From positions 720,508 through 784,507 of the forward strand of contig NZ_LT706951.1 in NCBI RefSeq assembly GCF_900155525.1: a stretch of DNA of 64,000 nucleotides, written 5' to 3'. Positions 34,495 to 63,532 of the stretch are shown one piece after another. Each line of letters starts with the position of its first letter. Positions within the stretch are counted from its first letter, which is position 1. The stretch comes from Mailhella massiliensis. GTDB taxonomy: Bacteria; Desulfobacterota; Desulfovibrionia; Desulfovibrionales; Desulfovibrionaceae. A model generated the notes under the pieces. The model was not told where the DNA came from. It was given only the letters and a program-made list of their open reading frames with translations, and did no database searches. A program made the translations under genes and the position numbers.

Positions 34495-35326
34495 AGCTCA
34501 GGACTCATTAATTGCCAAAAGGGTAAAAAGTTCTTATTGTCGGCATAGGGAGGATGCCATGAAGGAACTTTTTTATCTTTCTCATGAACAGATTGCTCGT
34601 ATCAAACGCTACTTTCCTCGTTCCCATGGCATTCCGAGAGTCGATGACAGGCGTGTCGTCAGCGGCATTATCTATGTCATCAAGCACGGCCTGCAATGGA
34701 AAGATGCTCCGTGCGAGTATGGACCATACAAAACTCTCTACAATCGTTTTATCCGCTGGAGCCGATTGGGGGTCTTTAACAGGATTTTTGCGGAGCTTGT
34801 TGAGCAAAACGGCTCCACAACACGCTTGATGATTGATGCCACACATCTCAAGGCACACAGGACAGCAGCAAGTTTGCTGAAAAAAGGGGCCTTTCCCGAT
34901 GTATCGGACGCACAAAAGGCGGCCTGAATTCAAAACTCCACGCTGTCTGCAATGCCTTCGGTCAACCGTTGGCCTTCCATCTGTCCGGCGGTCAGGTGAG
35001 CGACTACAAAGGCGCTGCTGTCCTGCTTGATACTCTGCCGCAGGCCGGGGAGCTTCTGGCGGATAGAGGCTATGATGCCGACTGGTTTCGTCATGCCTTG
35101 TCCCGTAAAGGAATCACGCCGTGTATTCCCGGCAGACACAGCCGGAAAACTCCGGTGGCCTATGACAAGGAGGTTTATAAGCAGCGGCACAAGATAGAAA
35201 TCATGTTCGGCCGACTCAAGGATTGGCGCAGAATAGCCATGCGTTATGACCGTTGTGCACACACGTTCTTTTCGGCTATTTGTCTCGCTGCCATTGTCAT
35301 CTTTTATATTTAATGAGTCCTGAACC
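34495..35326 (+). mobile_element. IS5-family (IS427-like) insertion sequence, copy 1, 832 bp, complete
   Basis: Ends are near-perfect 16-bp inverted repeats: left AGCTCAGGACTCATTA, right (reversed) GGTTCAGGACTCATTA. The element is flanked by a TA duplication (34493-34494 and 35327-35328). It carries a transposase in two frames joined by a -1 frameshift. It interrupts the palindrome CCGCCTAAGGCGG of an intergenic repeat. The 832-bp length equals that of copy 2 at 57647, with only scattered base differences. Confidence 0.92.
34559..35313 (+). CDS. IS5-family transposase, two ORFs joined by -1 frameshift
   Basis: ORF A (34559-34927, 122 aa) starts MKELFYLSHEQIARIKRYFP and holds the HTH-like N-terminus and first catalytic Asp (MIDATHLKAH). 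It ends DVSDAQKAA. Slipping back one base at CACAAAAGGC (about 34913-34922) reads KGGLNSKLHAVCNAFGQPLA, the continuation typical of full-length IS427 transposases. ORF B (ATG-defined 34969-35313) carries the second Asp (LLADRGYDADWF) and Glu (RHKIEIMFGRLKDW). All three DDE residues are intact, so the element is probably active. The same slippery tract is conserved in copy 2, arguing for programmed frameshifting rather than decay. Confidence 0.9.
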
Positions 35327-47045: not shown

Positions 47046-47121
47046 TCCCCGATAGCTCAATAGGCAGAGCGGGTGACTGTTAATCACTAGGTTGGCGGTT
47101 CAAGTCCGTCTCGGGGAGCCA
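47046..47121 (+). tRNA. tRNA-Asn (GTT), CCA encoded
   Basis: Acceptor arms TCCCCGA (47046-47052) and TCGGGGA (47111-47117) pair fully, followed by discriminator G and encoded CCA (47119-47121). The D arm is GCTCAATAGGCAGAGC, the anticodon loop CTGTTAA with GTT at 47079-47081, and the T loop GGTTCAAGTCC is standard. The integrase gene 242 bp downstream and the change of gene content make its 3' end the probable attachment site of the island. Confidence 0.97.
47097..47121 (+). other. Probable attL (3' end of tRNA-Asn)
   Basis: P4-type integrases usually recombine at the 3' part of a tRNA gene. The T arm to CCA end is the expected core. The partner repeat (attR) is not in the window, so limits are approximate. 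Confidence 0.5.
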
Positions 47122-47363: not shown

Positions 47364-48551
47364 ATGCCTCTGACAGAAACCCAGATCCGCAATCTAAAAC
47401 CCGCCTCCACGCCGAAAAAGCACTTCGACGGCGAAGGTCTTTTCCTCTACGTCACCCCGGCCGGAAGCAAGCTCTGGCGCATGGCCTACCGTTTCGAGGG
47501 CAGGGAAAAGCTCCTCAGCTTCGGCAAATATCCCACCGTTTCCCTGAGGGATGCCCGCGCCCGCCGCGATGAGGCAAAATCCCTGCTCGACAAGGGCGCA
47601 GACCCTTCGGCGGTCAAGAAACAGCAGAAGCAGGAACGCGAGGCTGTGACCCGCGACACCTTCGAGCTCTTCGCCCGCGAGTGGCACAAAGTCCGCACGG
47701 CCGCCTATTCCGAGGCCTACGGCAAGGCCATCCTCTATCGGCTGGAAACGTATGTGTTCCCGGTCATCGGCAAGACGCCCGTGACGCGCCTCGCGCCCAT
47801 GGACATACTTGGCGTGGTCAAGCCGCTGGACGACAAGGGCCATCACGAGACCGCCAGCCGTATTCTCCAGATCATCGGGCAGATTTTCCGCTACGCGATC
47901 ATTCTCGGCAAGGTGAAGCAGAACCCCGTGAGCGAACTTCGCGGTGCGCTGAAACCTCACAAGGTGGTGCATCGGGCGTCCGTGACTTCGCCGCCGAAAG
48001 TCGGCCAGCTTCTGCGCGACATCGACCGCTACGAGGGCTATTTCCCCCTAGTCTGTGCGTTGAAGCTCGCCCCGCTGGTATTCACTCGCCACACCGAACT
48101 GCGTGCCGCCGAATGGAAGGAGTTTGACTTCTCGAAGTCTGAATGGCGTATCCCCGCCGAACGCATGAAGATGCGCACGGCCCACATCGTCCCGCTGTCC
48201 CGACAAGCTGTGGCGATTCTGGAAGAATTGCGGCTCTACTCCGGCGAAGGCAAATACCTCTTCCCCTCGATTCGCACCGACGTGCGCCCCATCTCCGAAG
48301 TGACCATGCTCAATGCCCTGCGCCGCATGGGCTACGAGAAGGATGAAATGAGCGTGCACGGCTTCCGCTCGCTGGCATCCACGCTCCTTAACGAACGTGG
48401 ATACAACCGCGACTGGATAGAACGCCAGCTTGCGCACTCGGAACGGAACGGCGTTCGGGCGGCCTACAACTACGCGGAATATCTACCCGAACGCCGCTGC
48501 ATGATGCAGGAATGGGCCGACTACCTCGACGAACTCAAGAACGCCGCCTGA
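47364..48551 (+). CDS. int: P4-type tyrosine integrase
   Basis: A 395-aa recombinase with a strong AAGGAG RBS. The N-terminal arm-binding DUF4102 domain is MPLTETQIRNLKPASTPKKH with FDGEGLFLYVTPAGSKLWRM. The catalytic domain has Arg247 (ELRAAEW), His332-x-x-Arg335 (HGFR) and Tyr368 (RAAYNYAEYL), with the family tail ERRCMMQEWADYLD. It would integrate and excise the island at tRNA-Asn. The gene has cleaner, slightly different codon use from core genes upstream. Confidence 0.96.
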   Translation: MPLTETQIRNLKPASTPKKHFDGEGLFLYVTPAGSKLWRMAYRFEGREKLLSFGKYPTVSLRDARARRDEAKSLLDKGADPSAVKKQQKQEREAVTRDTFELFAREWHKVRTAAYSEAYGKAILYRLETYVFPVIGKTPVTRLAPMDILGVVKPLDDKGHHETASRILQIIGQIFRYAIILGKVKQNPVSELRGALKPHKVVHRASVTSPPKVGQLLRDIDRYEGYFPLVCALKLAPLVFTRHTELRAAEWKEFDFSKSEWRIPAERMKMRTAHIVPLSRQAVAILEELRLYSGEGKYLFPSIRTDVRPISEVTMLNALRRMGYEKDEMSVHGFRSLASTLLNERGYNRDWIERQLAHSERNGVRAAYNYAEYLPERRCMMQEWADYLDELKNAA

Positions 48552-50422: not shown

Positions 50423-51589
50423 ATGTCGTACCTCGTCCTTCATATGGATAAGTTCAAGCGCGAGTCGCTGCGCGGCATCCAGAGCCACAACAGGCGCGAG
50501 CGGAGAAGCCGTTCCAATCCCGACATCCGGCACGAGAAGAGCCACGAAAACTACGACCTGCACCAGCCGGAACTGCGCGACTACGCCCGCGCGGTGCAGG
50601 CCAGAATCGAGGCACTCAACCTGCCCAAGGCCGTGCGCAAAGACGCCGTTGTGCTCTGCGGCCTGATTGTCACCTCCGACCTGCCTTTCTTTGCCCGCCT
50701 GCCACCAGAGGAACAGCGGCGATTCTTCGAGGAGAGCCGCGACTTTCTCACCCGTTTCGTGGGGCGTGAGAATGTCATTTCGGCCATGATCCACATGGAC
50801 GAAAAAACGCCGCACATGCACTTCCTGCACGTCCCGGTGACGCCGGACGGTCGGCTCAACGCCAACGCCATCTACACGCGGGAAAGCCTGCGCCGCCTGC
50901 AAAGTGAGCTACCCGCACATCTCCAATCCTGCGGTTTCCGTATTGAGCGCGGCGTAGAGCAGGTTCCCGGCGCGCGGCGCATCCACCTGAACACCCGCGA
51001 GTTCAAGCAGGAAAAGGAAGAGCGCGAGCGCATCGCCGCCGATAACGTGAAAGTCCTGCGCCATGCGCTCGATACGCTCTACGCCGCGAACGAACTCGAA
51101 GAGCATCTCAAGGGCAAGATCAAGGACTACGAGAAGCAGGCCCGCGTGGCCGAGCGTTATCTCAGTCGCAACGAAGAACTGCCCGAAGCCACGCTCTTCA
51201 ACTTCAAGACTGTGCTGGCTCAGGCGCGGCGCGTCATTGAGGAGCAGAAAAAGGCTCTAGCCGAAAAGGCCATTCTGGAGGGACGGAAGGAAATCGTTGA
51301 TGGACTTCTTGCCGAGCGAAATCGCGAACTGAAAGAACAGGCCCGTAGGATCGACCGCCTCCTCCGAGAACTTGAGGAAGTCAAAGCACAAAAGAGAAAA
51401 GCCGAAGGGGAGGCTCATGCGCTCAAAGAGTTCATTGCCCAACCGGACGAAAAGCCGCGCTTTGAGAGGTTCCTCGCTGACAAGCAGGAAGAGGAACTCC
51501 GTGCCGAAATGGAGCGGCAAACCTGCCTCACCACACGCAAATCTACGCCTGCCCACGAAGACGATGGGCCTTCCTTCTCTTTTCACTAA
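50423..51589 (+). CDS. mobV: MobV-family relaxase (Mob/Pre)
   Basis: A 388-aa plasmid recombination/mobilisation protein. The N-terminal MSYLVLHMDKFKRESLRGIQ and SHNRRERRSRSNPDIRHEKS give motif I, and AMIHMDEKTPHMHFLHVPVT is the metal-binding HxDExTPHxH motif of MobV. The C-terminal ~190 residues are a long charged coiled coil (KGKIKDYEKQARVAERYLSR, KEIVDGLLAERNRELKEQAR). It would nick oriT and pilot the strand for transfer by a conjugation machine supplied in trans, since no T4SS genes are seen here. Confidence 0.93.
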   Translation: MSYLVLHMDKFKRESLRGIQSHNRRERRSRSNPDIRHEKSHENYDLHQPELRDYARAVQARIEALNLPKAVRKDAVVLCGLIVTSDLPFFARLPPEEQRRFFEESRDFLTRFVGRENVISAMIHMDEKTPHMHFLHVPVTPDGRLNANAIYTRESLRRLQSELPAHLQSCGFRIERGVEQVPGARRIHLNTREFKQEKEERERIAADNVKVLRHALDTLYAANELEEHLKGKIKDYEKQARVAERYLSRNEELPEATLFNFKTVLAQARRVIEEQKKALAEKAILEGRKEIVDGLLAERNRELKEQARRIDRLLRELEEVKAQKRKAEGEAHALKEFIAQPDEKPRFERFLADKQEEELRAEMERQTCLTTRKSTPAHEDDGPSFSFH

Positions 51590-52095: not shown

Positions 52096-52746
<651 letters not shown>

Positions 52747-52762
52747 AGATTTCTGTAGCTAA

Positions 52763-52896
52763 GTGTACTTTCTTGCAAGCCGTGAGCGCAAAATTGAGCA
52801 CTCCATTTTTGCCATAAATCTAGCAAAGTTACAACTCCGCCTCTTCTGACTGGCCTGCCAGCATCCTCCCAATTTTCCCTTTGCAAGAAAGTACAC
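52763..52896. mobile_element. 134-bp MITE-like segment with perfect 16-bp terminal inverted repeats
   Basis: GTGTACTTTCTTGCAA (52763-52778) is an exact inverted repeat of TTGCAAGAAAGTACAC (52881-52896). The 102 bp between is A/T-rich and non-coding. A further TTGCAAG lies at 52901, exactly 20 bp after the one in the right arm. A target duplication is not evident. It may be a miniature transposon, or a res site for the adjacent serine recombinase. Confidence 0.55.
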
Positions 52897-53005
52897 CTTT
52901 TTGCAAGGCCGGCGGGCGTATTCCCAAGGGATAACGGCATGGTCAGCAGAGATAAGTCGTTGGAAACATACAGGAAGGAAACCTCCATCCCCGATCGGAG
53001 GTTCC

Positions 53006-56000
53006 ATGGCAAAGCTTGAAGAACTCACCGTCGGCAGCAGTGTTCTCGGCATCGCACCGCAGGAAGCCGTAACTATCGTGGCGGCCCAGTGGTACGGCAA
53101 CGCCGTTCTGGACATCACCTATAAGGACAGCCGGGGCACGCCGGGCACTCGCCTTCTCTATCGGGAAGACGAGCCCTCGCTCACGCTCCAGAAGGCCGAA
53201 CTGCCGTGGAGCTTCGATGCCGACGGCGCACAGCTCCGCCTTGCGTCCGAGGCGTGGCGCATCCACTACGCCCACCTCTTCGACCCGTACCTCGCCGTCC
53301 ACACATCCGATGTCGAGCCGCTCCCGCATCAGATTTCCGCTGTCTATCAGGAACTTCTGGGCCGCCTGCCCCTGCGCTACATCCTTGCGGATGACCCCGG
53401 TGCGGGCAAAACCATCATGACCGGCCTGTTCATCAAGGAACTTATCGCTCGCGGCGATCTGAAGCGTTGCCTCATCGTAAGCCCCGGTTCGCTGGCCGAG
53501 CAGTGGCAGGACGAGCTTTTCCGCAAGTTCCACCTGCGCTTCGAGATACTCAATAACGAGCGCATCGAAGCCGCCGCTTCCGGCAACGTGTTTCAGGAAG
53601 CGGGCTTCGCCATTGCGCGGCTCGACAAGCTGGCCCGCAACGAGAACCTGCTCGACAAGCTCCGCGTCACCGACTGGGACCTGATAGTCTGCGACGAAGC
53701 CCACAAGATGTCCGCCACGGTCTGGGGCGGCGACGTGAAAATGACGCGCCGCTACCAGCTCGGCCGCCTGCTTTCCAGCATCACGCGGCACTTCCTCCTG
53801 CTCACCGCTACGCCGCACAACGGCAAGGAAGAAGATTTCCAGCTCTTCCTCGCGCTCGTGGATCAGGATCGCTTCGGCGGTGCCTCCCGCACCGGCGCAC
53901 AGTCCGTCAACGTGTCGGATGTCATGCGCCGCCTGGTGAAGGAAGAACTCCTGAAGTTCGACGGCTCTAAACTCTTCCCCGACCGCCACGCCGCCACGGT
54001 GGACTACAGCCTCTCGCCGCAGGAAGCCGAACTCTACAAGGCCGTGACCGAGTACGTGGAGAACGAATTCAACCGCGCGGACAAGCTGAACAACGAACGC
54101 CGCACTACCGTGGGCTTCGCGCTCACCATTCTCCAGCGCCGCCTCGCGTCCTCGCCGGAAGCCATTTTCCAGTCACTGCGCCGCCGCAAGGAACGCCTTG
54201 AACGCCGCCTTGAAGAAGAACGACTCGGCCAGCGCGCCCAGATGTGGGAGCGAGACCACGCCCTCCTCGACCTTGCCGACGCGGAGTTCGATGACGACGA
54301 CCTGCCCTCCTCCGAGCTGGAAGAAGCCGAAGAGCAGGTGGCCGACCGCGCCAGTGCCGCGTCCACCATCGCGGAACTGGAAGCGGAAATCGCCACGCTC
54401 AAGGTGCTGGAAGCTATGGCAGCCCGCGTGCGCGCCAGCGGCAAAGACCGCAAATGGGAAGAACTCTCCGGCCTGCTTCAGGACGAAGAGTGCATGTTCG
54501 ATTCGGACGGCTTACGCGAAAAGCTCATCATCTTCACGGAACACCGCGACACGCTCCGCTACCTCACCGGCAAGATTCGCTCGCTCCTCGGCAGTGAGGA
54601 AGCCGTGGTGGTCATCGACGGCGGAATGCTCCGCGACGAGCGCCGCAAGGTGGAAGAACGCTTCAAGCAGGACAAGGACGTGCGCATCCTCATCGCTACG
54701 GACGCCGCAGGCGAAGGTCTCAACCTCCAGCGGGCACACCTTATGGTGAATTATGATTTACCTTGGAATCCCAACAGGTTAGAGCAACGCTTCGGCCGAA
54801 TCCACCGCATAGGCCAGACCAAGGACTGCTGGCTCTGGAACCTCGTTGCCGCCGAGACCCGCGAAGGCAAAGTCTTCAAAAAGCTCTTTGAAAAGCTGGA
54901 GCAGGAGAAGCAGGCGCTGGGCGGCAAGGTCTTCGACATACTCGGCAAGGTCACGTTCAACAACCGCCCCCTGCGCGAACTGCTCATCGAAGCCGTGCGC
55001 CACGGCAGTGACCCCGCCGTGCAGACCCGCCTCGATGCCGACATGGACTCTGCCTTCGACCGCGAGGCCATACGCAAGCTGGTGCAGGATCACGCGCTCA
55101 CGCAGAACGTGATGGACGCCGAAACCGTGGCCGTCATCCGCGAGAACATGGAGCGCATGGAAGCCCGCCGCCTCCAGCCGCATTTCATCGAAGCTTTTTT
55201 CAAGGAGGCGTTCCGCGAACTGGGCGGCCGCATGTCCCCGCGCGAGAAGGGCCGCTGGGAAATCACCTTCGTTCCCCACGCCGTGCGGAGCCGCGATATG
55301 CAGGTGGGCAACGGCGAGCCCGTGCTCACCCGCTACGAGCGCATCTGCTTCGACAAGGCTTACCGCAACATTCAGGGCGCTGTGCCTGCCGCGTTCATCT
55401 GCCCCGGGCATCCCCTGCTCGAAGCCGTGCTCGATGTGATGCGCGAACGCTCCGGCGACCTTCTGAAGCGCGGGGCCGTGCTGGTGGACGAGAACGACAG
55501 TGGCGAATCCGCGCGCCTGCTCTTCTACATCGAGCACACCATTCAGGACGGCACGCTCCTTGCCGATGGGAGCCGCCGCGTCATCTCGCGCAACATCCAT
55601 TTTGTGGAAATCAGCGAAGACGGCACGGCCTCCAACGCAGGCTATGCGCCGTACCTCGATTATCGCCCCGCCTCTGGCGAAGAGCGGCAGGCCGCGCTCG
55701 AACACGCCAGCGGCAAGGCTTGGCTTGCGGGCGGCGTGGAAAGCCTCGCCCTCGGCCACGCCGTGACGCGGCTCATCCCCGGCCACCTGAACGAGGTTCG
55801 CACCCGCAAGGAACGGCTCATCGACAAGACCGAGAAGGCCGTCAAGGAACGCCTCACCACCGAGATACAATACTGGGACTACCGCGCCGCCGACCTCAAG
55901 CTCAAGGAGAACGCGGGCAAGCGCAACTCCCAGCTCAATTCCCAGATGGCGGAACGCCGCGCCGAAGAGCTGGCCGCCCGCCTCAAGCGCCGCATGGACG

Positions 56001-56527
56001 AGCTGGCCGCCGAACGCACCATCTCGGCCCTGCCGCCGGTCATCATCGGCGGGGCGCTCATCATTCCCGGCGGACTGATGGCGAAGCTCACGGGCCGCGC
56101 CACACCGGAATTCTGCGCCGACGCCCGCGCCCGCAAAACCATAGAAATGGCGGCCATGCAGGCGGTGATGGAAGCCGAACGCGCGCAGGGCTTCCTGCCC
56201 CGCGACGTGAGCGCGGAAAAATGCGGCTACGACATCGAAAGCTCCGTGCCGGACGCCCTCGCCAAAGGCGTGCCCAGCCTGCGTTTCATCGAGGTGAAGG
56301 GCCGCGCCGCCGGGGCGACCAACGTCATCGTTTCACGCAACGAGATCCTTACCGCACTGAACCAGCCAGAGCAGTTCATCCTTGCCCTTGTGGAAGTGGA
56401 CGGCCCGCGCACCCGCACGACCTACCTGAAACGGCCCTTTGTGAATTCGCCGGACTTCAGCTCGGAAGGCAGTATTTTCAACCTTTCCGCGCTGATGAGC
56501 AATGCGGAAATCATCTACGAAGGGTAA
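53006..56527 (+). CDS. SNF2-type helicase with C-terminal DUF3883 domain (Hma-type helicase)
   Basis: A 1173-aa superfamily-2 helicase. Walker A is DDPGAGKT (residues 129-136), motif II is DEAH (230-233), motif III LLTATPHNGKEED, and the C-terminal lobe has LIIFTEHRDTLRYL, IATDAAGEGLNLQRAHLMVN and LEQRFGRIHRIGQ. A long charged linker (about 400-510) separates the lobes. Near the C-terminus, AEKCGYDIESSVPDALAKGV and LRFIEVKGRAAGATNVIVSR form the nuclease-like DUF3883 domain (E-x-K). The start is ATG 53006 behind GGAGG. It precedes the DUF1156 methylase (3-bp gap) and DUF499 ATPase, a helicase-methylase-ATPase arrangement known as a defence system (Hma in PADLOC nomenclature; related components occur in class 1 DISARM). 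Confidence 0.92.
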   Translation: MAKLEELTVGSSVLGIAPQEAVTIVAAQWYGNAVLDITYKDSRGTPGTRLLYREDEPSLTLQKAELPWSFDADGAQLRLASEAWRIHYAHLFDPYLAVHTSDVEPLPHQISAVYQELLGRLPLRYILADDPGAGKTIMTGLFIKELIARGDLKRCLIVSPGSLAEQWQDELFRKFHLRFEILNNERIEAAASGNVFQEAGFAIARLDKLARNENLLDKLRVTDWDLIVCDEAHKMSATVWGGDVKMTRRYQLGRLLSSITRHFLLLTATPHNGKEEDFQLFLALVDQDRFGGASRTGAQSVNVSDVMRRLVKEELLKFDGSKLFPDRHAATVDYSLSPQEAELYKAVTEYVENEFNRADKLNNERRTTVGFALTILQRRLASSPEAIFQSLRRRKERLERRLEEERLGQRAQMWERDHALLDLADAEFDDDDLPSSELEEAEEQVADRASAASTIAELEAEIATLKVLEAMAARVRASGKDRKWEELSGLLQDEECMFDSDGLREKLIIFTEHRDTLRYLTGKIRSLLGSEEAVVVIDGGMLRDERRKVEERFKQDKDVRILIATDAAGEGLNLQRAHLMVNYDLPWNPNRLEQRFGRIHRIGQTKDCWLWNLVAAETREGKVFKKLFEKLEQEKQALGGKVFDILGKVTFNNRPLRELLIEAVRHGSDPAVQTRLDADMDSAFDREAIRKLVQDHALTQNVMDAETVAVIRENMERMEARRLQPHFIEAFFKEAFRELGGRMSPREKGRWEITFVPHAVRSRDMQVGNGEPVLTRYERICFDKAYRNIQGAVPAAFICPGHPLLEAVLDVMRERSGDLLKRGAVLVDENDSGESARLLFYIEHTIQDGTLLADGSRRVISRNIHFVEISEDGTASNAGYAPYLDYRPASGEERQAALEHASGKAWLAGGVESLALGHAVTRLIPGHLNEVRTRKERLIDKTEKAVKERLTTEIQYWDYRAADLKLKENAGKRNSQLNSQMAERRAEELAARLKRRMDELAAERTISALPPVIIGGALIIPGGLMAKLTGRATPEFCADARARKTIEMAAMQAVMEAERAQGFLPRDVSAEKCGYDIESSVPDALAKGVPSLRFIEVKGRAAGATNVIVSRNEILTALNQPEQFILALVEVDGPRTRTTYLKRPFVNSPDFSSEGSIFNLSALMSNAEIIYEG

Positions 56528-57646
56528 GCCATGAGCCAGATAAAGAAACTCATCGAAGTCGCACTTCCGCTGGAAGCGATAAATGACGCATCTGCTTATG
56601 AAAAAATGCCTGGCATTGGCCCACATCCTCGCGGCATTCATCACTGGTGGGCCCGCCGTCCGCTGGCCGCCGCCCGCGCTGTTATCTGGTCTTCTCTGGT
56701 GGACGATCCTTCCTCTCACCCTGAACTTTTCCCCACGGAACAGGAGCAGGAAAAAGAACGACAGCGTTTGCACTCCCTCCTGGCGCGTCTTTCAAACTGG
56801 AAAAATGTCAATGACGAGGAATTGATGGACGAGGCTCGCGCCGAAATAAAGAAGTACATGGGCGAAGAGCCGCTGGTGTTCCTCGACCCCTTCGCGGGTG
56901 GCGGTGCAATCCCGCTGGAAGCCCAGAGGCTGGGGCTTGAAGCTCATGCCCACGACCTGAACCCCGTGGCCGTGATGATAAACAAGGCCATGATTGAGAT
57001 CCCCCCTCGCTTTGCCGGGCAGGCTCCCGTGAACCCCGAAGCCCGCGCCAAGCTGGGGCAGGATCGCTCGTGGCGCGGTGCCACCGGCCTTGCCGAAGAC
57101 GTGCGTTACTACGGCGAATGGATAAAGCAGGAAGCTGTCAAGCGTATAGGTCATCTTTATCCTACGGTACAAGTCCCCATTGAACTGGGAGGAGGTAAGG
57201 CGACCGTTATCGCATGGATTTGGGCGAGGACAATAAAATGCTCGAATCCTGCCTGTGGCTGTGAAGTCCCACTGGTGAATAATTTTGTACTTTCCAAAAA
57301 GAAGGGCAAGGCGGCTTGGATTGAACCGCACTTTGAAAATGGGACGGCATCCTATGAAGTGCACCATAGCGGCAAACCAAACATTGAAGGAACGGTAAAC
57401 CGTAAGGGGGCAGTATGCGCTTGTTGCGGTACCCCTGTACCGTTTACCTATATTCGCGAACAGGGAAGAGCCGGAGCTATGTCTGCTCATCTTATGGCTG
57501 TCGTAGTCGATGGAAAAAATGGTCGTTTATATCTTTCCGCAGATAGTATTCATGCAAATGCTGCCCAAACCGGAAGACCAGAAGATTATCCCGATGCTCT
57601 TCTGCCGCAGAATCCTAGAAATTTTAACACTCCCAATTATGGTCTA

Positions 57647-58478
57647 GGCTCAGGACTCATTACTTGCCAAAAGGATAAGAAGTTCTTATTGTCGGCATAG
57701 GGAGGATGCCATGAAGGAACTTTTTTATCTTTCTCATGAACAGATTGCTCGTATCAAACGCTACTTTCCACGTTCCCATGGCATTCCGAGAGTCGATGAC
57801 AGACGTGTCATCAGCGGCATTATCTATGTCATCAAGCACGGCCTGCAATGGAAAGATGCTCCGCGCGAGTATGGACCATACAAAACTCTCTACAATCGTT
57901 TTATCCGCTGGAGCCGATTGGGTGTCTTTAACAGGATTTTTGCGGAGCTTGTTGAGCAAAACGGCTCCACAACACGCTTGATGATTGATGCCACACATCT
58001 CAAGGCACACAGGACAGCAGCAAGTTTGCTGAAAAAAGGGGCCTTTCCCGATGTATCGGACGCACAAAAGGCGGCCTGAATTCAAAACTCCACGCTGTCT
58101 GCAATGCCTTCGGTCAACCGTTGGCCTTCCATCTGTCCGGCGGTCAGGTGAGCGATTACAAAGGCGCTGCTGTCCTGCTTGATACTCTGCCGCAGGCCGG
58201 GGAGCTTCTGGCGGATAGAGGCTATGATGCCGACTGGTTTCGTCATGCCTTGTCCCGTAAAGGAATCACGCCGTGCATTCCTGGCAGACACAGCCGAAAA
58301 ACTCCGGTGGTCTATGACAAGGAGGTTTATAAGCAGCGGCACAAGATAGAAATCATGTTTGGCCGACTCAAGGATTGGCGCAGAATAGCCATGCGTTATG
58401 ACCGTTGTGCACACACGTTCTTTTCGGCCATTTGTCTCGCTGCCATTGTCATCTTTTATATTTAATGAGTCCTGAACC
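57647..58478 (+). mobile_element. IS5-family (IS427-like) insertion sequence, copy 2, 832 bp, complete
   Basis: Same element as at 34495: left end GGCTCAGGACTCATTA, right end (reversed) GGTTCAGGACTCATTA, with one mismatch between arms. TA duplication at 57645-57646 and 58479-58480. The pre-insertion site reads GGTCTAAGTAAT, sharing CTAAG with the target of copy 1. Confidence 0.95.
57711..58465 (+). CDS. IS5-family transposase, two ORFs joined by -1 frameshift
   Basis: Nearly identical to the transposase at 34559. ORF A (57711-58079, 122 aa) differs at two residues (RVISG, APREY instead of RVVSG, APCEY), and ORF B (58121-58465 from its first ATG) at one (TPVVYDKE). The CACAAAAGGC slippery tract and all three DDE residues are conserved, so this copy also looks active. 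Confidence 0.9.
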
Positions 58479-60169
58479 TAAGTAATTTTTCTGACCTATT
58501 CACAGATCGCCAACTTACAGCACTCACTACATTTAGCACCCTTGTAACCGAAGCCCAAAAGAAGGCCATGAGTGATGCACTGGTTGCTGGAATGGACAGC
58601 GATGAAACATCTCTTGCCGAAGGTGGTTCTGGAGCATTGGCCTATGGGCAGGCTGTAGGGACATATTTGGCTAATGCAGTTGATCGTCTTGCTGATTTCT
58701 CGACCTCTGTTTCCAGATGGTCTGCATCTAATGAAAAGCCGATGAACTTGTTTAGCAAACAGGCAATCCCTATGACTTGGGACTTTCCTGAGACTAATAT
58801 ACTAGGCGAAGCTGTTGGTGGATTCTCACCTATTGTTCAATATGTAGCAGACTGTATTTTAAAACTCCCCAAAACATCCACAAGGGGTTTCGCAACACAG
58901 CATGATGCTCAGAGTGATTGCGGCCTTCGTAGTATAGTCATATCTACAGATCCACCGTATTACGATAATATTGGCTACGCCGACCTTTCAGACTTCTTTT
59001 ATGTCTGGTTGCGGCGTTCTTTGAAAGCTACCTATCCTCAGCTTTTCCGCACCATGCTCGTTCCCAAGACGGAAGAACTGGTGGCTACTCCTTACCGTTT
59101 TGAAGGAAGCAAAGAAAAGGCCCGAGAATTCTTTGAAGACGGCATGTTCAAAACCTGCTGTCAGCTTTACAAATATTCTCGGGAAGATGTGCCTGTCACT
59201 ATCTATTATGCGTATAAACAAAGCGACTCTGATGAAAGTCAAAACGACAGCCAAACAGCATCTACCGGTTGGGAAACCATGCTTTCCGCTATCATTCAAG
59301 CTGGCTTTTCCATCACTGGCACTTGGCCACTTCGTACTGAGCAGGCGTATCGTTCTGTAAGCATGAACACCAACGCGCTCGCGTCCTCCATCGTGCTGGT
59401 CTGCCGCAAGAGGCCGGAAGATGCCCCCTCCTGCACGCGGCGTTCCTTCATTGCCGAGCTGAAGCGCGAACTCCGCACAGCGCTGAAGAAGCTCCAGTCC
59501 AGCAACATCGCCCCGGTGGATATGGCGCAGGCCGCCATAGGCCCGGGCATGGGCGTGTATTCTCGCTACAGCCGCGTGCTGGAGGCGGACGGCTCGCCCA
59601 TGAACGTGCGCAGTGCCCTGCAAACCATCAACGCCGAGCTCGACCTGTATTTCTCGGAACAGGACGGCGTGCTCGATGCCGAAAGCCGCTTCTGCGTGGA
59701 TCTCTACACGCAGTTCGCCTTTAACAACATGAAGTTCGGCGAGGCCGACGTGCTGGCCCGCGCCAAGAACACATCCGTGGAACGTCTGGCCGAAATGGGG
59801 CTGGTCTATTCCGAAAAGGGCGTGGTGCATCTGTTCGACCGCTCCGAACTGCCTGAGTTCAAAGCCGAGGCGCGAAGCTCCACGGGCCGCTGCCTCTGGA
59901 TGCTCACCCAGTACCTTTGCCAGTTCCTTGAAAAAGGCGGCGTGGAGGCCTGCGCCATGCTCTGCATGGACTACCCCTCCGACGCCGAACGCGCCCGCGA
60001 CCTCGCCTACCGCCTCTTCTCCCTTGCCGAGCGCAAGGGCTGGAACGCCGAAGCCTACGCCTACAACTCGCTCGTGGTCTCGTGGCCCGAGATACAGCAG
60101 AAGGTTTCCGAACTGCGCGCCGTGCGCCGCTCCGCCCAGCAGGGTTCCCTTATCTGATGAGAGTTAGCC

Positions 60170-63100
60170 ATGACCAATAATAACGAACTCGTTTTCCGCG
60201 GTTTCCGTGCCCTGCTCATGGGCTTTGCTCCGTACATCTGCGCCGCCCTCCGTGTGGAGTATGGGCCGGATTGGTGGCGGCAGGCTGTGCTCACCACCCT
60301 GCATGAGCTTCAACGGCGCGGCCTGCCTCTCGAAGGGCCGGATCAGAAGCTTATGGAATCGCTGGATATCCAGCGCTGTCTCATACTTTTCGATGCGCTG
60401 TGGGGCGACGTGTTCCGCAAGCGTCTTTCCATCGACCACCGCACATGGGCCAAGGAACTCATGGGCGTGCGCAACAAGCTGGCTCACATCGGCGCGGACG
60501 ATTTCAACGACAGCGACACCTGGCGCGCACTCGACACCATGTCTCGCCTCTGCGAGCAGATAGACGCCGAAGCCACCGAAGAGATTCGCGCTCTCCTGCG
60601 TGAATCCCGCTACGGCTCGGCCGCCGGTTCTACGGCTGTCACCGCTCAGGCCGCTCCGCAGGCCGCGCCCGCCGCGCCCAAGGCTTCCGGCATACTTGCG
60701 GAATCCCCGGCCAACCTGCCGAGCTGGCGCGATGTCATCGAACCGCATCCCGACGTGGCGCAGGGCCGCTACCGCAACGCCGAGTTCGCCGCCGACCTCT
60801 CGCAGGTGGCACGCGGCGAAGGCTCCTACGAATACCGCGACCCGGTGGAATTCTTCGCCCGAACCTATGTCACGGAAGGCATGGCCGGCCTTCTGGTGCA
60901 GGCCTTGAAACGCGTTTCCGGCAAGGACGGCGAACCCGTCATCCAGCTCAAAACAGCATTCGGCGGCGGCAAAACCCACAGTATGCTGGCCCTTTACCAC
61001 CTTCTGCGCGGCACAGTTTCCGTGGACAAAATTCCCGCCGTGCGCCCGGTTCTGGAGGCCGCAGGGCTTGCCAGCCTGCCCAAAGTCCACGCGGCAGTGC
61101 TGGTCGGCACTGCGCTCGACCCCAGCAAGGTGAAGCGCCCGCAGAATCTGCCCGGTATCACCGTGAGCACGCTCTGGGGCGAAATGGCCTACCAGCTCGC
61201 GCTCTCGGCCCAGAATCCCAAGCTCTACGACTTCGTAAAAGAAGCCGACAAGAAAGGCATTTCCCCCGGTTCCGAGGCCCTGAAAGGTCTCTTCGACGCC
61301 TGCGGCCCCTGCCTCATCCTCATGGACGAACTCGTGGCCTACGCCAAGCGCATCTATGGCGTGAACGGCCTGCCGTCCGGCTCTTTCGATAATTTCATCA
61401 CCTTTATTCAGGAGATAACCGAGGCCGCCCGCGCCAGCCGCAACAGCCTTGTGGTGGCCTCCATCCCCGAATCGAACATCGAGATCGGCGGCGAGGCCGG
61501 GCAGACCGCGCTGGAAGCCATCGAGCACACCTTCGGCCGCATGGAATCCATCTGGAAGCCCGTGGCCGCCAACGAAGGTTTTGAGGTCGTGCGCCGCCGC
61601 CTCTTCCTCGACTGCAAGAATCCCGCCGCGCGCGACATGGTGTGCGAACATTTCAGCGCCATGTACCGCGAGAACACGTCGGATTTTCCGCTGGAAACCA
61701 AGGAACTTGAATACAAGAACCGCCTCGTTTCCTGCTACCCCATCCATCCTGAAGTCTTCGACCGCCTCTACGACGACTGGGCCACGCTGGAGCGCTTCCA
61801 GCGTACGCGCGGCGTTCTGCGCCTCATGGCGGCGGTCATCCACGAGCTGTGGATGGGCAACGACGCGGGCCTGCTCATCATGCCCGGTTCCCTGCCCATG
61901 GACGTGCCCAACGTGCGCGACGAGCTGACCCGCCACCTCTCCGAAGGCTGGAACCCGCTCGTGGACAAGGAAGTGGACGGCAAGCAGTCCGTGCCCTACC
62001 TGATGGACAAGGCCAACTCGCGCTACGGCAAGATCCTCGCCGCCCGCCGCGTGGCCCGCGCCATCATGCTGGGCAGTGCGCCCACGGTGCGCCAGCAGAA
62101 CGTGCGTGGCCTTGAGGCGTCGCGCGTGCGCCTTGGCGTGACCCAGCCCGGCGAGCAGGTGGCGCTGTTCAACGACGCCTGCAATACGCTCAAGAACAAG
62201 CTGGCCTACCTTTACACCAATCCTTCCGGCGACCGCTTCTGGTACGACACGCGGCCCACGCTGAGAAAAACTGTGGAAGACCGCGCCACGCAGGTTGCGG
62301 CCTCGGACGTAGAGTTTGAAATCGAACGCCGCCTCAAGAAACTGCGTAAGGAAGCGCCGTTTGCGGGTATTCACGTTTGCCCGGCGTCGTCGCTGGACGT
62401 GCCGGATGAACAGGCCGTGCGGCTGGTGGTTCTGCGCCCGGCGGAAAGCTACGCCCAGTCGGCTCAGGACTGCGCCGCCATGCGTGCGGTTTCCGAAATG
62501 TTTGAAAAGCGCGGCACTGCCCCGCGTATGTACCGCAATATGCTGGTCTTCCTTGCGGCAGATCAGGCCCTTATGGCCAACCTCGAGCAGGAAGTGCGGC
62601 GCTTCATCGCGTGGACATCTATTAAGGAAGACAGTCAGGACTTGAACCTCGATGCCGCGCAGAACCGCGAAACAGAAGTCAGCCTCAAGCGCAGTGACGA
62701 GACCGTTGACTTACTGCTCAAGGAAGCGTGGTGCTGGCTCCTCGTGCCGAGCGTTGACACCTACGACCGCAAAACGCTGGACTGGGAACGTACCCGCCTG
62801 AGCGGTGACGGACTCATCAGCCGCGCGGCTAAAAAGCTCCTGCAAAATGAATGGGCTGTGACCAAGTGGGCTCCGGCGCTCCTGCTCATGGAACTGGATA
62901 ACCTGCTGTGGCAGGGCGTGAACCATATTGCCATCAAACAGCTCTGGGAATGGCTCTGCACCTACTGCTATCTGCCTAGACTGGCGAGCTATGACGTTCT
63001 GGAAGAGGCTATTGTCAGCGGCCTCAGCGAAGAGGAATTCTTTGGCTATGCCGCCGCCGTGGGCGAAGACCGCTATATCAGCCTGAAGCTCGGCCAGAGT

Positions 63101-63532
63101 GTCCGCCCCGAAAAGAGCGGCTACCTTGTGAAGGTGAAGGCCGCCAAGACGCAGATAGGGCGGGAGAAGGAAGCCACGACTCCGCCGGTACAGCCGCCTG
63201 TCGTTGAAACTGTCGTGCCTACTCCTGACAGGCCAGCTCCTGTTACTCCTACGCCTCCCGCGCCCCAGCCGGTTCAGCCCACCCCGCCTGCGCCGAAGAG
63301 CATGAGCTTCTACCTCTCGACTCAGCTCGACACCACCCGCGTGAACCGCGCCGTGCAGAAGATCCTCGAAGAGGTGGTCTCCGTCCTCACGCAGGAAAAC
63401 GGCGTCACCGTGGAACTACGCTTCGACGTGCAGGCCTCTGCTCCGAAAGGCCTCCAGCCAAGCACGATACGCGCTGTTTCCGAAAACTGCCGTACGCTGA
63501 AGATCACCAACTTCGGCTTTGTGGAAGAGTAG
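60170..63532 (+). CDS. DUF499 AAA ATPase with Swt1-like HEPN N-terminus (Hma-type ATPase)
   Basis: A 1120-aa protein. The N-terminal ~140 residues (LVFRGFRALLMGFAPYICAA, LSIDHRTWAKELMGVRNKLA) match the Swt1/DUF499 HEPN-type helical domain. The AAA domain has Walker A AFGGGKTHSM (Gly265-His270), Walker B CLILMDELVAYAKRIYG (Asp386-Glu387) and sensor-like VVASIPESNIEIGG. A Pro-rich linker (about residues 1005-1045) leads to a ~75-aa C-terminal domain. DUF499 proteins accompany DUF1156 methylases and SNF2 helicases, which is exactly the context here. It starts 12 bp after the methylase stop. Confidence 0.92.
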   Translation: MTNNNELVFRGFRALLMGFAPYICAALRVEYGPDWWRQAVLTTLHELQRRGLPLEGPDQKLMESLDIQRCLILFDALWGDVFRKRLSIDHRTWAKELMGVRNKLAHIGADDFNDSDTWRALDTMSRLCEQIDAEATEEIRALLRESRYGSAAGSTAVTAQAAPQAAPAAPKASGILAESPANLPSWRDVIEPHPDVAQGRYRNAEFAADLSQVARGEGSYEYRDPVEFFARTYVTEGMAGLLVQALKRVSGKDGEPVIQLKTAFGGGKTHSMLALYHLLRGTVSVDKIPAVRPVLEAAGLASLPKVHAAVLVGTALDPSKVKRPQNLPGITVSTLWGEMAYQLALSAQNPKLYDFVKEADKKGISPGSEALKGLFDACGPCLILMDELVAYAKRIYGVNGLPSGSFDNFITFIQEITEAARASRNSLVVASIPESNIEIGGEAGQTALEAIEHTFGRMESIWKPVAANEGFEVVRRRLFLDCKNPAARDMVCEHFSAMYRENTSDFPLETKELEYKNRLVSCYPIHPEVFDRLYDDWATLERFQRTRGVLRLMAAVIHELWMGNDAGLLIMPGSLPMDVPNVRDELTRHLSEGWNPLVDKEVDGKQSVPYLMDKANSRYGKILAARRVARAIMLGSAPTVRQQNVRGLEASRVRLGVTQPGEQVALFNDACNTLKNKLAYLYTNPSGDRFWYDTRPTLRKTVEDRATQVAASDVEFEIERRLKKLRKEAPFAGIHVCPASSLDVPDEQAVRLVVLRPAESYAQSAQDCAAMRAVSEMFEKRGTAPRMYRNMLVFLAADQALMANLEQEVRRFIAWTSIKEDSQDLNLDAAQNRETEVSLKRSDETVDLLLKEAWCWLLVPSVDTYDRKTLDWERTRLSGDGLISRAAKKLLQNEWAVTKWAPALLLMELDNLLWQGVNHIAIKQLWEWLCTYCYLPRLASYDVLEEAIVSGLSEEEFFGYAAAVGEDRYISLKLGQSVRPEKSGYLVKVKAAKTQIGREKEATTPPVQPPVVETVVPTPDRPAPVTPTPPAPQPVQPTPPAPKSMSFYLSTQLDTTRVNRAVQKILEEVVSVLTQENGVTVELRFDVQASAPKGLQPSTIRAVSENCRTLKITNFGFVEE

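Follow-up and report, generated by a model that had tools for sequence, protein, structure and literature searches.

The 64,000-nucleotide stretch of the Mailhella massiliensis genome analyzed here (the window) contains an operon of the helicase-methylase-ATPase (Hma) anti-phage system, in which the methylase gene, hmaB, is interrupted by an insertion sequence (IS). We consider it probable that this operon is switched by an invertible promoter, that the switch is OFF in the window, and that the loss of hmaB is tolerated in the silent operon, probably also because HmaB is needed for attack. In the mechanism that we propose, a mobile island at a tRNA-Asn gene would carry this operon, which also resembles Type-1 systems related to bacteriophage exclusion (BREX), and a serine recombinase encoded upstream would flip the promoter segment, thereby switching transcription of the operon. 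In the window genome the promoter would face away from the operon, and a recent insertion of an IS5-family element would have broken hmaB in the OFF state or shortly before. Silence of the operon would then explain why an intact helicase-nuclease and HEPN-ATPase are tolerated without a methylase, and HmaB, like BrxX/PglX of BREX, would probably also be part of the machinery that recognizes and licenses attack. The source genome is labelled G000, and other genomes and loci carry G- and L-labels.

The segment before hmaA is found in both orientations

A 134-base-pair (bp) switch (52763-52896) lies between hmaA and an upstream serine recombinase gene (52132-52746, + strand; Pfam Resolvase), whose product is the putative DNA invertase of the switch and has Sin, gamma-delta resolvase and DNA-invertase as relatives in the PDB. 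The switch is bounded by perfect 16-bp inverted repeats. The left repeat (52763-52778, + strand), a putative recombination site, reads GTGTACTTTCTTGCAA and pairs with the right repeat (52881-52896, - strand), and G000 has no exact copy of the 16-mer other than those at the two ends of the switch. The 102 bp inside the repeats (52779-52880) are exactly inverted in G127, a metagenome-assembled genome of an uncultured Mailhella species, which is another species of the same genus. The segment has the G127 orientation also in Desulfovibrio piger PG-251-APC-1. Inverted repeats, with both orientations observed across genomes, are as expected of an inverton. A second pair of genomes, G163 and G170, differs by the same kind of inversion between other repeats, and HmaA there is about 77% identical to that of the window.

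The D. piger contig starts 109 bp before the repeat, with differing sequence there, and a search of the D. piger genome with the window recombinase gave no match above 67%. Of the three recombinase relatives present there, two are followed by GTAC- or GTATAC-type repeats. Among the Hma loci listed in our survey (rows L186 and L214 left out), inverted repeats of at least 13 within 500 bp before hmaA were found in only two Desulfovibrionaceae copies, those of G127 and D. piger, and at L175. The latter is an Oscillospiraceae locus, in which hmaA is preceded by a 20-bp inverted pair that shares the GTAC core and has no adjoining recombinase.

A shared switch and a predicted promoter

Relatives of the recombinase (E <= 1e-40) were found in 46 of the 288 genomes of the host family, and 58 of their loci were examined. 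An inverted repeat with a GTAC-type core was present behind 27 of the 54 relatives that had at least 250 bp downstream, and behind 23 of 50 when four already known Hma loci were set aside. Where they were scanned, the genes behind such switches include Hma systems (the window, G127, G059, G170 and G234), another DUF499/DUF1156 pair (L141), Type III restriction systems (L122, which is in G000, and L136), a Type II/IIG-like methylase with a helicase (L129), a KAP/Qat-like NTPase (L116) and autotransporters (L105 and L126), with an FkbM-domain gene further downstream at L143. When the protein behind the switch was scanned with PADLOC, no match was obtained at L099, L102, L103 or L135. Contig ends coincided with switch repeats in 3 of the 6 cases looked at, as mixed orientations or populations would cause.

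Promoter-like elements in this family cluster such that 36-40 bp separate their -10 end from the repeat core. For this test, 21 of the 27 switches were kept; L069, L137 and L140 were dropped as near-duplicates, and L110, L143 and L145 because their length or core orientation was unusual or their anchoring poor. Cells scoring above 6 numbered 14 at distances 36-40, 2 at 24-35 and 6 at 41-59 (21 switches each), and the summed score over 36-39 bp was 97.6, as compared to a maximum of 68.7 in 2000 shuffles. Individually, 11 of the 21 switches reached p < 0.05. The window element, a predicted promoter of the form TTGTAA-17-CAAAAA at 52806-52834 on the - strand (p = 0.043), is a weak sigma-70 match that points away from hmaA, as do the elements of G059, G170 and G234, while those of G127, G163 and D. 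piger point towards hmaA. No promoter-like site was found on the + strand in 52400-57663. Because the element faces away from hmaA here and towards it in G127, the window switch is predicted to be OFF and that of the sister copy ON, and the segment probably turns the Hma operon on and off.

Several observations weigh against a promoter switch. The window element, with CAAAAA as its -10 hexamer, did not rise above shuffles in a free scan, no significant element is present at the conserved distance in 10 of the 21 switches, and L131 scores in both directions. The distance range was picked after the family had been inspected, which makes the test partly circular, and dropping six of the 27 switches favours the promoter interpretation. 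In addition, half of the recombinase loci (27 of 54) are without a GTAC-core repeat, and an assembly displays a single orientation of what may be a mixed population. The weak window match and the ten switches without a significant element would also fit an inverted segment that is a relic, or that carries a terminator or another element instead of the operon promoter. We regard this as improbable, given the distance peak across the 21 switches and the same architecture before unrelated genes.

More broadly, it is possible, although we put the chance somewhat below even, that in gut Desulfovibrionaceae one serine recombinase family and a shared promoter switch of ~130 bp phase-vary Hma, the other DUF499/DUF1156 system, Type III and IIG-like restriction, the KAP-type NTPase and autotransporters. 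A fraction of the population would then have Hma OFF, and otherwise costly breaks such as methylase loss would be sheltered in that state. The invertible segment before the operon also suggests that gut Desulfovibrionaceae hedge their bets on costly phage defences at the population level. Within G000 itself, the Type III restriction-modification pair at L122 (contig C28, near 101000) has its own recombinase and switch, which is also predicted to be OFF.

The Hma operon and the interruption of hmaB

The system type and gene order given in the original prediction were borne out by a search with PADLOC profiles, which assigned HmaA, HmaB and HmaC homologues to adjacent genes in the Hma order; domains were assigned with Pfam. 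The hmaA gene (53006-56527, + strand) matches its profile at 53006-56524 with 1654.7 bits over profile positions 1-1170 of 1176, and encodes an SNF2 helicase with a C-terminal NOV_C domain, which is a nuclease domain of the PD-(D/E)XK type (PMC12839542). The hmaB gene is present as two collinear pieces on the + strand. Its 5' part (56531-57646, 372 codons) contains DUF1156 and motif I, DPFAGGG, and its 3' part (58481-60157) contains DPPY and has its own first ATG at 58568. The corresponding matches are 56531-57697 (432 bits, profile positions 8-419 of 967) and 58568-60154 (624 bits, positions 449-959 of 967). The hmaC gene (60170-63532, + strand; match 60170-63529, 1057 bits) encodes a HEPN domain (HEPN_Swt1) fused to a DUF499 AAA+ ATPase. 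The window copy is thus a disrupted member of the Hma family.

Residues expected of two effectors are present. The HmaA nuclease residues E1096 and K1098 sit in FIEVKG, and the nuclease D, an E/D/Q and the K are kept in all 59 HmaA matches that cover these positions. The HEPN motif RNxxxH is intact in the window HmaC (RNKLAH), and of 48 HmaC sequences, picked because their start was mapped, 46 have R[ND]xxxH. The operon therefore likely encodes both a DNA nuclease and an RNase. PglZ or BrxC-type (DUF6079) proteins did not turn up among the window proteins that were scanned, although no dedicated or genome-wide search for them was made.

The element that interrupts hmaB is an IS5-family IS (57647-58478, + strand) with its transposase in two frames. 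Its terminal repeats have 18-nucleotide arms, TA included, that are 94% complementary, and the TA target duplication was read against the empty site in G127. As originally predicted, the IS splits the methylase between its S-adenosylmethionine-binding motif and DPPY, and the insertion point lies after codon 372. At sixteen places in G000, counting the window site, no fewer than 820 of the 824 IS query bases are matched at 98-100% identity, and the presence of such near-identical copies inside contigs suggests that the assembly resolved these repeats. A second copy in the window, at about 34495-35326, is 97-98% identical.

To place the break in the protein, we used a predicted HmaB structure. 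A model from 7 sequences was unusable, with a predicted local distance difference test (pLDDT) score of 52, whereas one of an intact homologue from 47 sequences was good (pLDDT 83.4). In the latter, the break falls in the loop before the helix 381-407. No solved structure was matched by the HmaB or the HmaC profile at E <= 0.01, and a Foldseek comparison of the HmaB model with the PDB gave no match at E <= 0.001. The HmaB sequence is without a match to solved chains, and for the model only general methyltransferase matches were found, which span residues on either side of the break. The first ATG of the 3' fragment corresponds to codon 402, so that 29 codons, including those for the invariant residues F379, R382 and Q383, would be lost. 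Because the fold matches span the break and translation of the 3' piece would begin at codon 402, methylase activity was likely lost through the insertion. Conceivably, each fragment is translated on its own and the two products assemble into a working split methylase; both frames are open, and the predicted fold is divided at a loop. The missing invariant residues and the fold that spans the break make this extremely unlikely, and we rejected it.

The comparison with a relative that has an intact methylase, as had been proposed, was provided by G127, which carries the island with an uninterrupted hmaB. Identity between the window and G127 runs from 47075, inside the tRNA-Asn gene and near the end of the G127 contig, to 69184. 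Apart from the switch and the IS, only four mismatches (48748, 48942, 51166 and 51521) and one gap (69171) separate the two copies. In hmaA, both parts of hmaB and hmaC there are no base differences, and hmaA and hmaC are open, consistent with the original description of the helicase and ATPase genes as intact. Because the three genes are identical to those of the uninterrupted G127 copy, the insertion is judged to be recent and to postdate the split of the two copies. It is in fact so recent that the open hmaA and hmaC frames say nothing about long-term selection.

How the loss of hmaB may be tolerated

The original prediction held that loss of the methylase beside an active effector should be toxic, unless the effector is silent through polarity, the methylase is not needed for self-protection, or another methylase compensates. 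Silence fits the predicted OFF state of the switch, while polarity is no longer the best reason for it. A scan of the IS (57647-58478) revealed no terminator-like site on the + strand, and terminator polarity inside the IS was therefore rejected as a cause, though Rho-dependent polarity could still act. If the operon is silent, intact hmaA and hmaC would be tolerated without the methylase. Toxicity is also not a general expectation. In Type I BREX, removal of BrxX was reported to be non-toxic and was linked to the role of BrxX in starting defence (PMC11842806), and this precedent, applied to Hma, would make hmaB loss harmless.

Breakage of hmaB was also seen in other Hma loci. Our survey used HmaC as bait and covered at least 80 loci, plus 8 earlier ones. 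Among those listed, hmaB was present in all 52 loci in which hmaA and hmaC were each at least 80% covered. Removal of one duplicate left 51 distinct loci, with the G127 copy counted and the window copy left out. In these, hmaB was frameshifted in 5, hmaA was broken in 2 and hmaC in none. The excess in hmaB was significant when compared to hmaA and hmaC together (p = 0.041), was not significant when compared to hmaA (p = 0.44), and gave p = 0.056 when compared to hmaC alone. Three of the five frameshifts are at runs of 7-11 G or C, and hmaB G-runs are found at L192, L225 and L231. In-frame runs of 9 and 10 G also occur in two hmaB genes and a run of 11 G in one hmaC, and runs of 7 that cause no frameshift were seen in one further hmaB and one hmaA, and twice in hmaC. 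The hmaB frameshifts at G-runs resemble the phase variation of PglX described in BREX (PMC9122589). The genomes with frameshifted genes are mostly drafts, and some of the frameshifts may be assembly errors, which counts against the interpretation favoured here. At L192:4192, in an archaeal draft genome, an 11-G run lies inside hmaB motif I and the gene is out of frame. The in-frame 11-G run in hmaC, at L178:8061, directly follows the HEPN motif RNKLAH and may be a site of slippage within the RNase domain.

These data bear on whether HmaB is needed for attack. If it were the sensor or specificity subunit, as dependence of the BREX type would have it, its loss would disable the whole system whatever the promoter does, and survival would need no silencing. 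This weighs against a necessary role for the switch, while being compatible with an OFF operon, and we consider the odds for this explanation taken alone to be about even. It is consistent with the non-toxic brxX deletion, and also active-site mutant, of Type I BREX (PMC11842806), with the homology argued between components of BREX-related (BR) systems and BREX (PMC12839542), and with the constant presence of hmaB beside hmaA and hmaC, even though the gene is frameshifted in 5 of 51 loci. HmaA, however, carries a nuclease domain of its own, in contrast to the published description of BREX (PMC9122589), and hmaB was not broken significantly more often than hmaA, as noted above.

The opposite arrangement, in which HmaB protects self DNA in the manner of a restriction-modification system, would let cells with a broken hmaB live only while the switch is OFF, ON being lethal; such cells are predicted to be locked OFF. 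Two cases fit. G000 is predicted OFF with a broken hmaB, and D. piger is predicted ON with an open hmaB and an hmaA that is stopped at about codon 790, before the nuclease domain. Nevertheless, we regard this explanation as rather unlikely, since it rests on these two cases, runs against the BREX precedent, and would have to accommodate four of the five loci with a frameshifted hmaB (L192, with 319 bp available, L194, L204 and L221), at which the stretch of up to 500 bp ahead of hmaA showed no inverted repeat of at least 13.

Compensation by another methylase, or an effector that acts without methylation, appears very unlikely. G000 does have at least one Type III methylase (L122), but compensation would require an enzyme of the same specificity, and the HmaB profile found only the two hmaB pieces in G000 at E <= 0.001, in a search that covered the HmaB family only. 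This weakens the compensation proposed originally.

The reading that we favour, an operon that is switched OFF and probably also disarmed by the loss of HmaB, changes what the locus can teach. It had been put forward as a natural test of how the system works. Such a test would be unclean because the switch confounds it, and the insertion is too recent for a long-term evolutionary verdict. The switch itself supplies a sharper test. If the broader reading of a family-wide phase-varying switch is true, flipping it ON in the window strain would expose HmaB as protector or as sensor. How methylase-containing Hma and BR systems avoid self-attack is a question made directly testable by natural, near-identical copies in both orientations and by breaks in the methylase or in the nuclease-bearing gene.

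Relation to known systems

Gene order and the three protein profiles are those of Hma (Payne et al. 2021, PMC8565338), from which the window differs in its IS-broken hmaB and in the invertible segment and recombinase in front. HmaB is called a 5-methylcytosine methylase in that paper; DPPY and a 2026 report (PMC12839542) point instead to an N6-adenine methylase. The latter report describes a Type-1 DUF499-centred BREX-related system with the same HEPN-DUF499 ATPase, DUF1156 N6-methylase and fusion of an SNF2 helicase to PD-(D/E)XK, the fusion having catalytic residues in 79% of taxa. The window operon likewise has a helicase fused to a nuclease domain with catalytic residues, and an N-terminal HEPN domain on the DUF499 ATPase, a trait of part of that family. 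The invertible promoter and the methylase loss are features of the window, with no mention in the portion of that report available to us.

Invertible promoters are known from elsewhere, for example Mpi of Bacteroides. The pdcB and pdcC promoters of Clostridioides difficile (PMC11868660) share with the window the short segment between inverted repeats and the site-specific recombinase, whereas the window segment precedes an anti-phage operon, in Desulfovibrionaceae. DNA inversion controls methylase-containing defence in the hsd system of Mycoplasma pulmonis and in hsdS-type invertons (PMC11892184), which are classical Type I restriction and not Hma or BR. Control of methyltransferases by invertible promoters has been suggested (PMC10333322), there as a suggestion only and not for Hma or BR. 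In BREX/Pgl systems it is the methylase PglX that is phase-variable (PMC9122589), while in the window the inversion lies before the operon. For recombinases located beside defence genes, a function in defence was described as unknown (PMC12529663). Among open-licence PubMed Central papers, we found none that connects Hma or BR systems with an invertible promoter. Restriction systems have long been known to be switched by inversion, and an invertible segment before an Hma/BR operon is a new variant.

Other genes of the island and of Hma loci

The tRNA-Asn gene (47046-47121, + strand; found with ARAGORN) forms the left edge of the shared island of ~22 kilobases. It is followed on the same strand by a tyrosine integrase gene (47364-48551; Pfam Phage_integrase and Arm-DNA-bind_3) and a gene for a Mob_Pre relaxase (50423-51589; Pfam), a mobilization function. 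Plasmid sequences were present among the HmaA matches. An additional HmaB-like methylase, more distant and 30-40% identical, is encoded between hmaB and hmaC at L186, L194, L195, L196, L198, L200, L214 and L217, and at L179 there are three HmaB copies in a row. Downstream of hmaC in the window island, a Lamassu-like LmuA-LmuB-LmuC trio and a Fic protein are encoded on the other strand, at 64157-68985 in extended window coordinates (L235:1665-6493).

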